A stretch of DNA of 64,000 nucleotides from Corallococcus macrosporus DSM 14697 (GTDB lineage: Bacteria; Myxococcota; Myxococcia; Myxococcales; Myxococcaceae). Below, piece after piece: positions 5,286-62,471 of this stretch. The stretch is from positions 7,970,001-8,034,000 of the forward strand of contig NZ_CP022203.1 of the NCBI RefSeq assembly GCF_002305895.1, given 5' to 3'. The notes beneath the pieces were generated by a model that saw only the letters and a program-made list of their open reading frames with translations, searched no databases and was not told the origin of the DNA. Every line of letters begins with the position of its first letter. Positions within the stretch are counted from its first letter, which is position 1. A program made the position numbers and the translations under genes.

Positions 5286-7121
5286 ATGAAATCGCTCGCA
5301 GAACTGTTGCGGCACCTGTCGCGTCCGGGTGTCACCGAGTTGACCCTGGCGACCGGCCGCCCACCGATGATCCGCGGCGCCAACGGCTATGAGCCGGTGG
5401 ACCCCACCGCCGCGACGGCCGAGGACATCACCCGCGCCCTCCAGGCGATGGTGGGCGTGGCCCGGGCCTCCACCGTGACGGAGACGCCGGTGCAGTGGTC
5501 CGTCAACGCCACGGGCCTGGGCGCGCTGTCCATCGCCGCCATGCGGCGGGGGGACCTCATCCACCTGCGCCTCAGCAAGGCCGCCGACGCGGGCGCCGCC
5601 GCCCAGGCCGCCGCCGCCACCGCGAGGCCCGCCGCCGCCCAGGCCGCCAGCGCGCCCGCCGCGCGTCCCGTGGCGTCCGCGCCCGCCGCCGCTTCCCGGA
5701 CGCCCGAGCCCGCGTCTGCGTACAGCGCGCATGCTCCCGCCTCCGCGCACCGGGCGCCCGAGCCCGCGTCTGCGTACGGCGCGCATGCTCCCGCCTCCGC
5801 GCACCGGGCGCCCGAGCCCGCGTCGGCGTACGGCGCGCCCGCCTCCGCGCACCGAGCGCCCGAGCCCGCGTCTGCGTACGGCGCGCCCGCCTCCGCCTCG
5901 GCGTACCGGGGGACGGAGCCAGCCCCGGCCTCCAGCCCGTCCGCCGCGCCGTCCCGCGCCTTCGCCGGGGCGGGGCGCGAGCTGGCGGCGCTGCTCGAGG
6001 AAGGGCGCAGGAGCCTGGCCAGCGACGTGCACATCATCGCGGAGCGCCCGCCCCTCTTCCGCGTCGCCGGGGAGCTGACGCCCCAGGGCCCGGTGCTGGA
6101 CGCGGCGATGGTGGAGAAGCTGCTCCTGCCGGTGGTGCCGGACCGGCTGAGGCTGGTGCTGGAGCGAGAGGGGAGCTGCGACTTCTCGCTGGAGACGCCG
6201 GAGATGGGGCGCTTCCGGGTCAACGTGGGCCGCCAGCGCACCGGCCTCAAGGGCACCTTCCGGCTGATTGCACGGGAAGTGCCCACGCTGGCGTCGCTGG
6301 GGCTGCCCGCGGACATCGCCAAGGCCACGCACCACCACCAGGGCCTCATCGTCATCACCGGCCCGTCCGGCCACGGCAAGACGAGCACGCTGGCGGCCCT
6401 GGTGGACCTCATCAACCGCGAGACGTCCCACCACGTGCTCACCGTGGAGGACCCGGTGGAGTACGTCCACCCGCGCAAGCGCGCGCTCATCAGCCAGCGC
6501 GAGGTGGGCTCGCACACCAAGACGTTCGCCAGCGCGCTCAAGGGCAGCCTGCGCGAGGACCCGGACGTCATCGTGGTGGGCGAGCTGCGCGACACGGAGA
6601 CGGTGCGCATGGCGCTGTCCGCCGCGGAGACGGGCCACCTGCTCATCAGCACCATGAACACGCCGAGCGCGGCGAAGACCATCGACCGGCTCATCGACCT
6701 CTTCCCGCCGGGAGACCAGCAGCAGGTGCGCCTGTCGCTGTCCAGCGGCCTGCGCCTCATCGTCAGCCAGCGGCTGATGCAGGGCACGGACGGCAAGCTG
6801 GTGGCCGCGGCGGAGGTGCTGCCGGGCTCGGTGTCGCTGGGCAACCTCATCCGCGACAACAAGACGTTCCAGATTCCGTCGCTCCAGCAGCGCGGCAAGA
6901 GCCTGGGCATCGTCCGCTTCGAGGACTCGCTGGCGGACCTGGTGCGCGCCGGCAAGGTGAAGCTGGAGGTCGCCAAGGGCTTCGCGGACAACCCGGACGA
7001 GCTGGAGGCCGTGGTGACGGGCAAGCGGGCCGGCGCCACCGTGGCCGCGCCGGAGTCGCAGCAGGACAGCGCGAGGCTCCTGAGCAAGATGGGTTCACTG
7101 ATGGGAAGGAAGGGCTCCTGA
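5286..7121 (+). CDS. PilT-like ATPase with extended N-terminus (secretion/pilus motor family)
   Basis: 611 residues, far longer than PilT (about 370). Residues 1-100 resemble a degenerate PilT/GspE N-terminal domain (GVTELTLATGRPPMIRGANG). Residues about 105-215 are an Ala/Pro low-complexity linker with repeats of the type APASAHRAPEPASAYG. The motor domain follows: second N-domain (SLASDVHIIAERPPLFR), Walker A GPSGHGKT at 359-366, Asp box (VLTVEDPVEYVH), Walker B (LREDPDVIVVGELRD). The usual His box HTNSA is MNTPSA here, near residue 457, so a His conserved in retraction ATPases is missing. It is followed one base later by a second PilT-like gene; the pair may form a hetero-motor or a regulator of pilus retraction. 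Confidence 0.88.
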   Translation: MKSLAELLRHLSRPGVTELTLATGRPPMIRGANGYEPVDPTAATAEDITRALQAMVGVARASTVTETPVQWSVNATGLGALSIAAMRRGDLIHLRLSKAADAGAAAQAAAATARPAAAQAASAPAARPVASAPAAASRTPEPASAYSAHAPASAHRAPEPASAYGAHAPASAHRAPEPASAYGAPASAHRAPEPASAYGAPASASAYRGTEPAPASSPSAAPSRAFAGAGRELAALLEEGRRSLASDVHIIAERPPLFRVAGELTPQGPVLDAAMVEKLLLPVVPDRLRLVLEREGSCDFSLETPEMGRFRVNVGRQRTGLKGTFRLIAREVPTLASLGLPADIAKATHHHQGLIVITGPSGHGKTSTLAALVDLINRETSHHVLTVEDPVEYVHPRKRALISQREVGSHTKTFASALKGSLREDPDVIVVGELRDTETVRMALSAAETGHLLISTMNTPSAAKTIDRLIDLFPPGDQQQVRLSLSSGLRLIVSQRLMQGTDGKLVAAAEVLPGSVSLGNLIRDNKTFQIPSLQQRGKSLGIVRFEDSLADLVRAGKVKLEVAKGFADNPDELEAVVTGKRAGATVAAPESQQDSARLLSKMGSLMGRKGS

Positions 7122-40494: not shown

Positions 40495-47988
<7,494 letters not shown>

Positions 47989-54637: not shown

Positions 54638-54678
54638 CGCCTGCAGCCACGTGCCGCCGCCCGGGCCTGGCGCCAGGA

Positions 54679-55052
54679 GCGGGCGAGCGGTCCGCCCCGC
54701 GGAGCATCCGTCCCGAGACGCTCCATGCCCGCGAGGCTGGAGCGGGCGAGCGCTCCGCCCCGCGGAGCATCCGTCCCGAGACGCTCCATGTCCGCGAGGC
54801 TGGAGCGGGCGAGCGGTCCGCCCCGCGGAGCATCCGTCCCGAGACGTTCCATGTCCGCGAGGCTGGAGCGGGCGAGCGGTCCGCCCCGCGGAGCATCCGT
54901 CCCGAGACGCTCCATGTCCGCGAGGCTGGAGCGGGCGAGCGCTCCGCCGACCGCACGTCCGTCCCCGGACGCGCCCTCTCCGCGAGGCTGGCGCGGGCGA
55001 GCGCCCCCCACGGCGCGTCCGTCCCTGGACGCTCCGTGCCCATGAGGCTGGC
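54679..55052. repeat. 63-bp tandem repeat array (6 units) in a 447-bp gene-free gap
   Basis: Units start at 54679, 54742, 54805, 54868, 54931 and 54993. The first four are 63 bp and differ at only three or four positions; the fifth (62 bp) and sixth (60 bp) are diverged. Each begins GCGGGCGAGCGGTCCGCCCC and ends in TCCGCGAGGCTGGA. Within and across units GCTCC...GGAGC arms can form hairpins. All six frames stay largely open because 63 is divisible by three, but none has a start, signal or composition of a gene. This is the only gap over 300 bp in the window; the remaining bases (54638-54678, 55053-55084) show nothing else. Confidence 0.9.
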
Positions 55053-55084: not shown

Positions 55085-56248
55085 ATGCGCACCTCTCTCC
55101 CGCTGCTCTCGGCCCTCGTGGTGCTCACCGTCTCCGCCTCCGCCTGCCGCAGGAGCCAGGCGCAAGGCACCGCCTCCCCCAAGGACTGCATCCTCGTGGA
55201 GGACGGCTGGGGCGCCGACGGCGCCGTACCCTTCGACGTCGAGGTGGTGGCGCGCGGACTGGAGACGCCGTGGGGCATCGCGTGGCTGCCCGGCGGTGAC
55301 GCGCTCGTCACCGAGCGCCCGGGCCGCATCCGCCTGCTCAAGGCGGGCGCCCTCCAGCCCCAGCCCGTGGCGACGGTGCCGGTGGCGGACGCCGCGGAGG
55401 GAGGCCTGCTCGGCATCGCGGCCCACCCGGACTTCGCGCAGAACCGCCAGTTCTACATCTACGTCACCACCGACGCGGGCGGCACCGAGGAGAACCGCAT
55501 CGAGCGGTGGACGCTGTCGGATGACCACACCTCCGCGGCGCGCGACCGCGTCATCTTCGGCGGCATCGCCTCCGCCACGTACCATGACGGCGGGCGCCTG
55601 CGCTTCGGCGCGGACGGCATGTTGTACGCGGGCACCGGCGACGCGAGAGACCCGGACCGCTCGCAGAACGCGAACGACCCGGCCGGCAAGCTGCTGCGCC
55701 TCACGCCGGACGGCGCGGTGCCGCAGGACAACCCCATCCCCGGCTCGCCCGCGTTCCTCACGGGCATCCGCAACCTCCAGGCCTTCGACTGGCGGGACGC
55801 CTCCACGCTGTACGTGGTGGACCACGGCCCCAGCGGGGAGACGCTGCGCCGGGGCCATGACGAGGTGAGCGTCGCCCGGCGCGGGGACAACCTGGGCTGG
55901 CCCGGCATCTACTCGTGCGAGACGCGCCAGGGGCAAATCACCCCGTCCATCACCTACGAGGACGCCCTGCCACCGGGCGGCGCAGCCATCTACACCGGCA
56001 CGGCCATCCCCGAATGGAAGGGCTCGCTGCTCATCGGCACGCTGGGCTCGCGCCACCTCCAGCGCGTGGAGTTCGCGCCCGACTCGAACCGCGTGGCGAA
56101 GCATGAAGTGTATCTGCGCGACACGCACGGCCGGCTGCGCGAGGTCATCATGGGGCCGGACGGCCACCTCTACGTCACCACCAGCAACTGCGACGGGCGC
56201 GGCGACTGCGGGCCGGACAAGGACCTCATCCTCCGCCTGAAGCGCTGA
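55085..56248 (+). CDS. PQQ-dependent sugar dehydrogenase lipoprotein
   Basis: 387 residues; lipobox VSASAC anchors Cys21. Six-bladed propeller of the soluble glucose/aldose dehydrogenase family: GLETPWGIAWLPGGDALVTE, GGLLGIAAHPDFAQNRQFYI, catalytic His in TYHDGGRLRFGADGMLYAGT near residue 167, NLQAFDWRDASTLYVVDHGP, and GDNLGWPGIYSCE. It oxidises aldoses at the periplasmic face using PQQ and calcium. Cys pairs near the C-terminus (NCDGRGDCGPD) probably form a disulfide. No PQQ-synthesis genes are nearby. Confidence 0.9.
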   Translation: MRTSLPLLSALVVLTVSASACRRSQAQGTASPKDCILVEDGWGADGAVPFDVEVVARGLETPWGIAWLPGGDALVTERPGRIRLLKAGALQPQPVATVPVADAAEGGLLGIAAHPDFAQNRQFYIYVTTDAGGTEENRIERWTLSDDHTSAARDRVIFGGIASATYHDGGRLRFGADGMLYAGTGDARDPDRSQNANDPAGKLLRLTPDGAVPQDNPIPGSPAFLTGIRNLQAFDWRDASTLYVVDHGPSGETLRRGHDEVSVARRGDNLGWPGIYSCETRQGQITPSITYEDALPPGGAAIYTGTAIPEWKGSLLIGTLGSRHLQRVEFAPDSNRVAKHEVYLRDTHGRLREVIMGPDGHLYVTTSNCDGRGDCGPDKDLILRLKR

Positions 56249-59277: not shown

Positions 59278-59449
59278 GCGTCAGGGTCTACCACGGGGTA
59301 CGAAGTCCCGGCAGTTCACGAGCGGCGGGCGCCCGTGGAACGCGCCTGCCAGCCCGGGCCCTCGCCCACACTGCCAGCGGCATCCGCCTCCGCCTCGAAG
59401 TGCGAGCGATGGAGGCCCCGGGGACCCACCCCGCGCGAGGCCACCCACC

Positions 59450-62020
59450 TCAGGTGGGCAGCGGCTGGCCCAGGCCCTTGCGCAGGGCCTCGTCGATGAG
59501 GTCGTGCACCTTCACCTCCGCCTCCCTCACGCGCGCCTGATGCTGCTCGCTCAACCGGACCTGCTCCTCGTGCAGGGCGTGCTGCTTCTCGCTGAGCTGG
59601 CCCTGCTCCTTGCTCAAGGCGCCCTGCTTCTCGGCGAGCCCCGCCATCTGCTTCTCCAGGGCCGCCATCTCCTGCTCCAGCGTGCGGTCCTGCTTCTTCA
59701 GCTCGGCGCGGCGGCGCTCGCGCTCGGTCTCCGACAAGGAATCCAGCCGCGTCTCCTCCAGGTGGAGCCCGGCTTGCCGATAGGCCAGGTCCCCGAGCTT
59801 GCGGCCCAGACCGCCCTGCTCATGGCCCAGGGTGGCCTGCTTCTGGCCGAGCGCGGCCTGCTGCTTGCCCAGGGCGGCCTGCTTCTCCCCCAGCGCGCTT
59901 TGCGCCTTGCCCAGCTCGCGCGTGCTGGAGAGGGCTTCACGCACGGCCTTCAGCGTGGCGGGGTCGCGGATGATGAACGCCTCGTCCTTGCGGCGGACAA
60001 AGAGAATCTCCTTGTTCTTCTGCTTGAAGGTGCGCGCCAGCTCAAGGTCGACCGTGGTGCCGTTCATCATCGCCGACCCATCCGCCAGCAGCACGTAGCC
60101 GCGGTCCGGGTCCCCCATCGGTGGCGCGGGCGGAGCCGGCGGCGGAGGAGGAGGAACCGCGGCGAGGTGAGGGCCGGCGCCCAGGACGTGCCGGTGCGAG
60201 GCGACCGCGATGCGGGGGGCCGGAGGCGTCGGCGGCAGCGGAGGCAGCGGCGAGGCAGCGCCGAGCTCAGCGGGTGTATTGGGCGGCGTCGGCGCGGCGG
60301 GCGGCGTTGGCGGCGGCATCGCGGGCGAAGCGCTCGCAACGCCCTGGGGATGGAACACGACCACGCCCCGCTTCACCACGACGCGCTCGTTCCTGGTCTC
60401 CGTGACGCGCTCGCCCTGAGCCGGAGACGGCGCGGGCTTCGCGGCTGGAGACGTCGTGGCCGTGCCCCGCGAAGGCGCGGGCTTCGCGGCCGGAGACGCC
60501 GTTGCCGTGCCTGGCGAAGGCGCGGGCTTTTCGGCTGGAGACGCCATGGCCGTGCCCCGCGAAGGCGCGGGCTTCGCGGCCGGAGACGCCGTGGCCGTGC
60601 CCCGCGAAGGCGCGGGCTTCGCGACAGGAGACGCCGTGGCCGCGCCCAACGAAGGCGCTGGCTTCGAAGCCTGAGCCGCCGCGGGCGCCGAGGCAGGCGA
60701 CTCAGGCGCCTGCCCGGACGCGGCGCCCGCTTCCCGCGCGACGACCTGGAAGGGCACCAGCGCCGCGACGCCCATGGCGGAGAGCGCCACCTTCAACACG
60801 CGCCGGATTCGAGGGGAAACGGCATCAACATGCTCCAGCATGCTCAACCTCCTGTGCAACGCATCAACGTGAGATGACGCACCAAGCGCCGCGGCCGAGC
60901 CGGGAGCCCTTGCGATTCCAAAGGCGAGAATCAGCTCGCCGTAGTCCGCGGGCTCCGCGTCCGTGAGCCGGATGGCCTCGGCGTCACACGCCTCCTCGCG
61001 AGCCAGCGCGTACTCGCGGGCAGCCCGCCGCGCGAGCGGGTGGAAGAAGAAGAGCGACTCCATCAGCGCGGGCACCCAGCCAAGCCACAAGTCCCCCCGG
61101 CGCAGGTGCGCCAGTTCGTGCGCCAGCGCCATGCGCAGCGCCGCCATGGGCAGCAACCGCACGGCCTTCGCGGGCAGGACCACCACCGGCGACAGCAACC
61201 CCGTGGCCAGCGGACTGGCCACCGTCTCGGAGACCAGGAGCATTGGCGCGCGTCGCAGCCCCGCGGCCGCCGACAACGCCCGCACCTCCGCCTCCAGCGC
61301 TGGGTGCACCAGCGGACGCGCCGCCCGGCGCAGACGACGCACCGCGAGCCCGCTCTTCACCTGGCCTCGCATCTGCCACAGCACCCCGGCGCCCCACACC
61401 ATCAGGAGGAGCCACGCCAAGGCGCGCCCCCATGAGAGGGAAACGCCGGGCTCGCCCTCCGCGTGCGCGGCACCGCCCCCGTCCCCCTGGCGCCCGGCCT
61501 CACGCGGCGCAGTCACAGGGAGCCCGCCGGCCCCCACCATCCAGGAGGAAGGCCCGGGCCCCGCCGCCACGAGGCTCACCACCTCGCCATGGCGCGCGGC
61601 CTCGCGCCGCGTGGACACGGCCACCTGGAGCCCATCAGGCGCAACGCCGTTCGCCGCCCACCGCGGAGGAGACACCGCCCCTTGCGTCGCGCCAGCCTCC
61701 ACGCCCTCCCGTGTCGAGCCTTGCGCCTGGAAGGCCGTCACCTTCGCGCCAGCCACGGGCCGCCACGCGGAAGCCCCGCTCCACCACGCCTCCACCCGCG
61801 CCACGCTGGACGCCACCGACGCGGGCAGCACCGGCAGCGCGAGCGTGGGCAGCCATCCCAGCGCCACCACGAACTTGAGCGCCACCAACCACCAGAGCCC
61901 GGCGCGCAGCGACGCCGGCAACCGGGGCCACGCGCGGGACACCGCCCACACCAACGCGGCGCACAGCGCCCCCTGCCACGACGCCCGCCACAAGCCCGAG
62001 GACATCCAGTCGGTGAACAT
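59450..62020 (-). CDS. BlaR1/MecR1-like M56 metalloprotease with C-terminal coiled coil
   Basis: 856 residues from the ATG at 62020. Membrane segments near residues 13-30, 42-65 and 210-230 and near 420 frame the M56 zinc site HELAH (residue about 302, in ALAHELAHLRRGD) with EEACDAEA behind it. In BlaR1 a penicillin-binding domain follows. Here there is instead a Pro/Ala linker with six 15-residue repeats (KPAPSRGTATASPAA), a small domain (YVLLADGSAMMNGTTVDLEL), and a coiled coil with heptads LGxKQAA (about 690-840). Penicillin sensing is therefore unlikely. It starts 4 bp after the BlaI-like gene, its presumed target. Confidence 0.88.
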   Translation of the reverse strand: MFTDWMSSGLWRASWQGALCAALVWAVSRAWPRLPASLRAGLWWLVALKFVVALGWLPTLALPVLPASVASSVARVEAWWSGASAWRPVAGAKVTAFQAQGSTREGVEAGATQGAVSPPRWAANGVAPDGLQVAVSTRREAARHGEVVSLVAAGPGPSSWMVGAGGLPVTAPREAGRQGDGGGAAHAEGEPGVSLSWGRALAWLLLMVWGAGVLWQMRGQVKSGLAVRRLRRAARPLVHPALEAEVRALSAAAGLRRAPMLLVSETVASPLATGLLSPVVVLPAKAVRLLPMAALRMALAHELAHLRRGDLWLGWVPALMESLFFFHPLARRAAREYALAREEACDAEAIRLTDAEPADYGELILAFGIARAPGSAAALGASSHVDALHRRLSMLEHVDAVSPRIRRVLKVALSAMGVAALVPFQVVAREAGAASGQAPESPASAPAAAQASKPAPSLGAATASPVAKPAPSRGTATASPAAKPAPSRGTAMASPAEKPAPSPGTATASPAAKPAPSRGTATTSPAAKPAPSPAQGERVTETRNERVVVKRGVVVFHPQGVASASPAMPPPTPPAAPTPPNTPAELGAASPLPPLPPTPPAPRIAVASHRHVLGAGPHLAAVPPPPPPAPPAPPMGDPDRGYVLLADGSAMMNGTTVDLELARTFKQKNKEILFVRRKDEAFIIRDPATLKAVREALSSTRELGKAQSALGEKQAALGKQQAALGQKQATLGHEQGGLGRKLGDLAYRQAGLHLEETRLDSLSETERERRRAELKKQDRTLEQEMAALEKQMAGLAEKQGALSKEQGQLSEKQHALHEEQVRLSEQHQARVREAEVKVHDLIDEALRKGLGQPLPT

Positions 62021-62024
62021 GCGA

Positions 62025-62408
62025 CTACCCCTTCCGCTTCTGCGAGCGCAGCCGCGCCACGACGTCCTGGAGCTGCGCCAGCTCCTCGTCGGACACATCC
62101 TCGGCCTCGGACAGGTACGCGGCGAACGGTGACACCGAGCCCGACAGCGAGCGCTGCACGAAGTCGCCCACCACGTCCCTGAGCAATTCGGCGGCCGGCA
62201 CCGGCGAGGCGTACTGGAACACGCCCTCCACCTTGCGCCGCGTCAGGTAGCCCTTCAGCCGCAGGCGCTCCATCACCGTGAGGATGGTGGAGCGCGCCAG
62301 CCCCTGGGCCTCGCCAAAGCGCTCGGCCACCTCACCCACGGTCGCCGGGCCGTGCTCCGCCACGTACCGCAGCACCAACAGCTCCTGCTCTCCCACCGGC
62401 TTCTTCAT
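62025..62408 (-). CDS. BlaI/MecI-family transcriptional repressor
   Basis: 127 residues from the ATG at 62408 (GGGAAGG upstream). Winged helix: GEQELLVLRYVAEHGPATVG, EVAERFGEAQGLARSTILTV, MERLRLKGYLTRRKVEGVFQ. The C-terminal dimer helices follow (AAELLRDVVGDFVQRSLSGS, DEELAQLQDVVARLRSQ). BlaI dimers block their own promoter until cleaved after a signal from the M56 partner. Two matching operators overlie its promoter, and the M56 gene follows directly, so the pair is a full BlaI-BlaR1-type circuit. Confidence 0.92.
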   Translation of the reverse strand: MKKPVGEQELLVLRYVAEHGPATVGEVAERFGEAQGLARSTILTVMERLRLKGYLTRRKVEGVFQYASPVPAAELLRDVVGDFVQRSLSGSVSPFAAYLSEAEDVSDEELAQLQDVVARLRSQKRKG

Positions 62409-62418
62409 GCGCCTTCCC

Positions 62419-62438
62419 GTGACGACAACTGTAGTCAC
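62419..62438. promoter_or_regulatory. BlaI-type operator 1, over the transcription start
   Basis: GTGACGACAACTGTAGTCAC, imperfect dyad. Its core (62420-62437) matches operator 2 at 16 of 18 bases; the two are 33 bp apart (three helix turns). The predicted start near 62436 falls in it. Confidence 0.7.
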
Positions 62439-62442
62439 GAAG

Positions 62443-62471
62443 AAGGTACGGCTGACTACAACCGTAGTCAA
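62443..62471 (-). promoter_or_regulatory. Predicted promoter of the BlaI-M56 operon
   Basis: On the minus strand TTGACT (62471-62466), 17-bp spacer, TACCTT (62448-62443). The -35 lies in operator 2. Confidence 0.55.
62453..62470. promoter_or_regulatory. BlaI-type operator 2, over the -35 element
   Basis: TGACTAC-AACC-GTAGTCA, perfect 7-bp arms. Confidence 0.75.

Follow-up and report, generated by a model that had tools for sequence, protein, structure and literature searches.

The 64,000-nucleotide stretch analyzed here (hereafter the window; Corallococcus macrosporus DSM 14697, contig NZ_CP022203.1, positions 7,970,001 to 8,034,000, from a genome of 8.97 Mb in a single contig) carries at window positions 59450–62471 a variant of the BlaR1-BlaI operon that is conserved and clearly bounded, and in which a repressor is paired with an M56 membrane metalloprotease that ends in a C-terminal module for which neither a library family nor a paper was found. 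By its architecture the protease is not a penicillin receptor, and the module most likely senses something else. We favor, at a probability of about 0.7, a transmembrane proteolytic derepression circuit of the BlaR1-BlaI type whose periplasmic input domain has been exchanged for one that does not respond to beta-lactams. A search of the literature likewise returned no paper on a BlaI-BlaR1 pair of Myxococcus, the host type of this locus and a predatory soil bacterium.

The repressor gene (62025–62408, minus strand, 127 aa) belongs to the BlaI/MecI/CopY family; its product matches PF03965, the Penicillinase_R winged helix, with E = 6.4e-24 (85 bits; gathering score, 22.6), and its top sequence matches in PDB are MecI and BlaI. 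The gene of the BlaR1-type M56 protease lies downstream on the same strand (59450–62020, 856 aa) after a spacing of 4 bp (62021–62024), and PF05569 matches residues 198–395 of its product with E = 2.5e-37 (129.1 bits; gathering score, 31). A preliminary description of the window had proposed both the BlaI-BlaR1-type pair and the 4-bp spacing, and the family matches and open reading frame coordinates bear this out. The zinc protease domain (60836–61429, minus strand, residues 198–395) contains HELAH at 301–305 (H301-E302-x-x-H305), E342, and D346, which are invariant in the M56 alignment except for L or V inside HExxH, and the spacings from H to E (+41) and from H to D (+45) equal those of the catalytic residues H201, E242, and D246 in Staphylococcus aureus BlaR1 (PMC9834060). 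Comparison of the M56 model with PDB folds gave five matches at E ≤ 0.001, every one of them S. aureus BlaR1 (8EXQ, 8EXP, and 8EXR among them; best E = 3.8e-5).

No penicillin-binding domain was matched in the M56 protein by searches of Pfam, NCBIfam, or PDB folds, and residues 429–856 hold no SxxK, SxN, or KTG-like motif; NF000326 scored 74.9 bits against a cut-off of 400 and covered the protease part only. The profile search for a transpeptidase fold in the C-terminus, proposed in the preliminary description as a check on its view that the input is probably not a beta-lactam, recognized none, and that view stands. With no penicillin-binding domain to be acylated, the protein is very unlikely to take a beta-lactam as its input by that route.

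The C-terminal part of the protein opens with a Pro/Ala-rich linker (60116–60733, minus strand; residues 430–635; 206 aa, 52 of them Pro and 51 Ala), which holds a 45-bp tandem repeat (60429–60681), and is completed by the module (59453–60097, minus strand; residues 642–856), which AlphaFold2 modeled with a predicted local distance difference test (pLDDT) score of 90.3. The model reads as a pair of strand-strand-helix (bba) units followed by an antiparallel helical hairpin, with a closing strand near the C-terminus whose return to the bba part is assumed. In the numbering of the 225-aa construct, strands 9–15 and 18–22, helix 25–34, and strands 41–46 and 49–53 are followed by the hairpin helices 56–130 and 133–216 and by a strand at 220–222; the two helices, of 75 and 84 residues, would measure roughly 11 nm (0.15 nm per residue). 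The C-terminal LGxKQxx heptads give 15 Leu-to-Leu +7 pairs, compared with 3.6 expected and a maximum of 11 in 20,000 shuffles. In 26 Myxococcus sequences with identities down to ~50%, the distance between the RD motif and the C-terminus is always 170 residues, with zero indels, and the terminal KGLGQP.PT is invariant in the aligned loci; in the shorter modules (L032, L065, and L066) both arms of the hairpin are shortened. This length, fixed despite the heptad-repeat DNA, and the paired shortening of the arms support the antiparallel hairpin. Foldseek with the module returned unrelated coiled coils only, a second structural comparison was likewise dominated by coiled-coil hairpins and uninformative on the bba part, and no Pfam family was found for the module. 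The Pro-rich linker, small domain, and heptad coiled coil noted earlier are all present, but "coiled coil" alone does not describe the C-terminus, which forms a single module of fixed length that includes a hairpin.

Two operators precede the pair, as had been noted from the window alone, and comparison of the sites agrees exactly: TGACTACAACCGTAGTCA (operator 1, 62453–62470) and TGACGACAACTGTAGTCA (operator 2, 62420–62437) are identical at 16/18 bases and start 33 bp apart. Each is one base off the family consensus TGACTACANNTGTAGTCA, which is kept at those Myxococcaceae loci that have the operon and includes TACA-N2-TGTA, the published operator core for BlaI, MecI, and CopY (PMC7253601). The upstream dyad overlaps the −35 element of a minus-strand promoter assigned by consensus, TTGACT-17-TACCTT (62443–62471; −35 at 62471–62466, −10 at 62448–62443), and the other overlaps the expected transcription start. 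A simple sigma-70 scan of the promoter region called no promoter, because TACCTT agrees with TATAAT at just three of six bases. The elements recur, however, in 19/19 aligned promoters, the window included: TTGACT lies over operator 1, a TACCTT-like −10 (of GTACCTT type, ~17 bp on) follows after a spacer of 16–18 bp, and operator 2 sits at the expected start site. This upholds the promoter that the preliminary description had called plausible, with its operators over the −35 and the start site. The two-site arrangement, 33–35 bp apart, stands ahead of the operon at every Myxococcaceae locus examined whose upstream region is present. Judged by this conservation, the operators are real regulatory sites, at which binding of the repressor is predicted.

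Operators and operon are present or lost together. We surveyed 86 genomes of the family for sites at ≤1 mismatch, with a reversed-pattern control that gave zero throughout, and found sites in 51/51 genomes with the module compared with 1/35 without it, the other 34 having neither; the exception (G150) has both BlaI and the M56 protein on a contig that stops in the linker, and we count it as a truncated case. In G007, a Myxococcus genome, the sites are missing along with this BlaI and this M56 protein, and a further three M56 genes and two BlaI-like genes are retained. Most sampled Myxococcaceae with larger genomes carry the module as a fusion to M56. In another myxobacterial family of the order (f7) it occurs alone, two proteins in tandem whose starts resemble signal peptides consisting of nothing but the module (L065:6495-7831); in two sister genomes the module lies close to contig ends. 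The M56 protein of an f7 genome with the free-standing module has a different, repeat-type C-terminus. A periplasmic location of the module is supported by the existence of this free secreted form. A single scan of genome contigs with specific patterns returned only loci of Myxococcus or Pyxidicoccus type, the named relatives of the genome, plus one labeled Comamonas, and plasmid searches came back empty. The contig in question, titled Comamonas sp. KCTC 72670 (L086), bears a Myxococcus-type copy of the entire locus, and the record is probably mislabeled or contaminated.

In Myxococcus the circuit seems to control only itself. Each sampled Myxococcus genome with the operon has exactly two sites at ≤1 mismatch, and the whole genome of the window has two at ≤2 mismatches, both of this operon; within the window no further site was found at ≤3 mismatches to the dyad, and dinucleotide shuffles gave 0. 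At three mismatches the genome has four more operator-like sites vs. one for the reversed-pattern control, and we rejected these as targets, the count being near chance. The sole palindromic intergenic site among them, TGACAACAACAGTTGTCA, forms with TGCCAACAGCCGTTGTCA a pair of tandem palindromes 20 bp apart, upstream of a gene for an FHA-domain-like regulator (L099:1481-1518). It is near-identical in several Myxococcus genomes, and since one of these lacks the present BlaI, it is taken as the site of another regulator.

Additional targets appear in other genera. In a Corallococcus-like genus (g31, name inferred), a second operator pair, 32–33 bp apart, precedes the gene of a protein of ~86 aa that has a single hydrophobic segment (L105:6521-6842; also L101–L106, L109, and L110). 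The protein was found in 12 of the 86 genomes, all of g31, and the extra operator adjoins it in 12/12. In two g33 genomes, a gene for a secreted protein is preceded by a lone operator-1-like site that lies over a TTGACT −35 (L108 around 6228-6264; L107 around 5938), the protein being an S15 X-Pro peptidase in one and without an assigned family in the other. As these extra sites precede genes for membrane or secreted proteins, such proteins would be the outputs in genomes that have them, in addition to the circuit itself, which would be an output throughout. An S9 peptidase was rejected as a general target: among the Corallococcus-like loci examined, a single one has it behind the extra operator pair, and the Myxococcus homologs of the peptidase have no operator.

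The operon resembles BlaR1-BlaI and MecR1-MecI of Staphylococcus and Bacillus in the neighboring repressor and M56 genes, the TACA..TGTA dyads over the promoter, the conserved gluzincin residues, and the fold of the protease. It differs in that those proteins carry a class-D beta-lactamase-like sensor, whereas here there are the Pro/Ala linker and the (bba)2-hairpin module; moreover, no beta-lactamase or penicillin-binding protein target was found, and the predicted extracytoplasmic loop equivalent to EL1 of BlaR1 (61436–61825, minus strand, approximately residues 66–195, gap-rich in the alignment between predicted helices) is far longer and not conserved in sequence. BlaR-BlaI of Mycobacterium tuberculosis likewise has a BlaI-paired M56 protease without a penicillin-binding sensor (PMC9834060); that protein is described as having no equivalent sensor domain, whereas here a different, conserved module occupies the C-terminus. 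The copper repressors CopY and CopR share the repressor family and operator core (PMC7253601), but TIGR02698 matches weakly (32.7 bits vs. a cut-off of 122), the 127-aa repressor has no Cys at all and so no C-terminal Cys-X-Cys metal motif of the CopY kind, and the operon includes a partner protease.

Other M56 proteins also have C-termini unrelated to penicillin-binding proteins. The genome of the window contains four BlaI-M56 pairs, and the three besides the present one end in a TonB_C-type domain (L002, G000:C1:5182207-5185779), a GVTPEYIx-like repeat array (L003, G000:C1:235665-239192), and an SLT transglycosylase domain (L004, G000:C1:8727923-8731264). These too have a BlaI-like neighbor, but their C-terminal domains are unrelated to the present module; none of the three M56 proteins has a penicillin-binding domain, and none of the three loci has a site of the present operator type within three mismatches. 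In a further genome (L152, G082:C193) an M56 protein ends in an array of GDYExA-type repeats. Given such varied C-termini in this and related genomes, the M56 proteins found here exchange their C-terminal domain as a general rule.

By homology to BlaR1-BlaI, in which BlaR1 cleaves BlaI directly (PMC9834060), we infer the following cycle. At rest, BlaI dimers would occupy both operators at the operon's promoter and so hold down the levels of repressor and protease. Membrane helices would anchor the M56 protein with the zinc protease facing the cytoplasm and the C-terminus outside it, a topology taken from BlaR1, and the long Pro/Ala linker would place the module in the periplasm. There the two bba units and the hairpin of ~11 nm may act as the sensor by engaging a partner other than a beta-lactam, most likely an envelope protein or the cell-wall layer; the preliminary description had suggested protein partners, envelope stress, or mechanical state as possible inputs. 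A change in this engagement would activate the protease, and cleavage of BlaI would then derepress the operon and, in some genera, the additional genes for membrane or secreted proteins.

Several observations weigh against this reading. The mean pLDDT of the M56 model is low (56), with ~80–94 in the protease core; a hydropathy scan shows two clear segments (44–62 and 408–426) against the four membrane helices expected for the family, the further helices appearing in the model alone; and alignment places Tyr98-Leu99 of the repressor opposite Asn101-Phe102, where BlaI is cleaved, so that a cut at the equivalent position should not be taken for granted. It is also odd for a stress-response circuit that Myxococcus has no operator outside the operon, whether in the genome of the window at ≤2 mismatches or in the sampled genomes at ≤1. 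The last point suggests that the module could be the product of the circuit and not, or not only, its sensor: derepression would raise M56 levels, and signal peptidase would release the module after the last membrane helix to act in the periplasm. Free secreted versions in another myxobacterial family fit such a role, as does the cut that signal peptidase makes in S. aureus BlaR1 after its last membrane helix (PMC9834060), where PFQVVA is invariant in the present proteins. We nevertheless consider it unlikely, as there is no sign that the module is translated separately, the long linker and single-chain fusion are retained in the intact Myxococcaceae loci read, and in the Corallococcus-like genus the same operators appear to control another gene, which would be a conventional output.

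Less probable still is that the protein continues to report beta-lactams, or damage to the cell wall, by some route that needs no penicillin-binding domain. Such a role has been proposed for the BlaR homolog of M. tuberculosis, in which, as noted above, an equivalent sensor domain is said to be missing (PMC9834060). The large extracytoplasmic loop could contribute to such sensing, but its sequence is not conserved, the genome has no second operator-bearing promoter at ≤2 mismatches and hence no operator-bearing beta-lactamase gene, and the conserved module would stay unexplained. A further alternative, that repeats expanding in GC-rich DNA have given the protein a low-complexity C-terminal tail that it can do without, would agree with the DNA-level tandem repeats in heptads and linker; it is effectively refuted by conservation, namely the 170 residues free of indels and the invariant end, and the fold is confidently modeled and has free-standing homologs. 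The derepression circuit with an exchanged input domain remains our preferred reading. A more speculative version of it, to which we give little credence, is a self-only proteolytic switch in which the hairpin of fixed length serves as a periplasmic ruler or antenna and M56 activity reports envelope spacing or the occupancy of a structural partner instead of a chemical ligand.

Downstream of the pair we rejected the idea of constant operon members: many relatives have an aldehyde-dehydrogenase-like gene between the M56 gene and a TPR gene, and here that gene is absent, leaving a 172-bp gap (59278–59449) before the separated TPR gene. Elsewhere in the window, a 276-bp unit is repeated 14 times in tandem at 43384–47257 (77% matches), probably as a repeated protein domain within one long gene, and a 63-bp repeat occurs six times at 54676–55051 (88% matches), immediately upstream of the gene at 55085–56248.

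BlaR1 is viewed as a penicillin receptor, yet M56-BlaI pairs without a penicillin sensor also occur, and here a single genome holds four pairs, each with a different C-terminal domain. The present operon combines a promoter whose architecture is conserved, a candidate sensor that can be separated genetically and has a predicted fold, genera that either have or lack additional targets, and a genus with workable genetics, and it would allow a direct test of what the non-penicillin relatives of BlaR1 sense.

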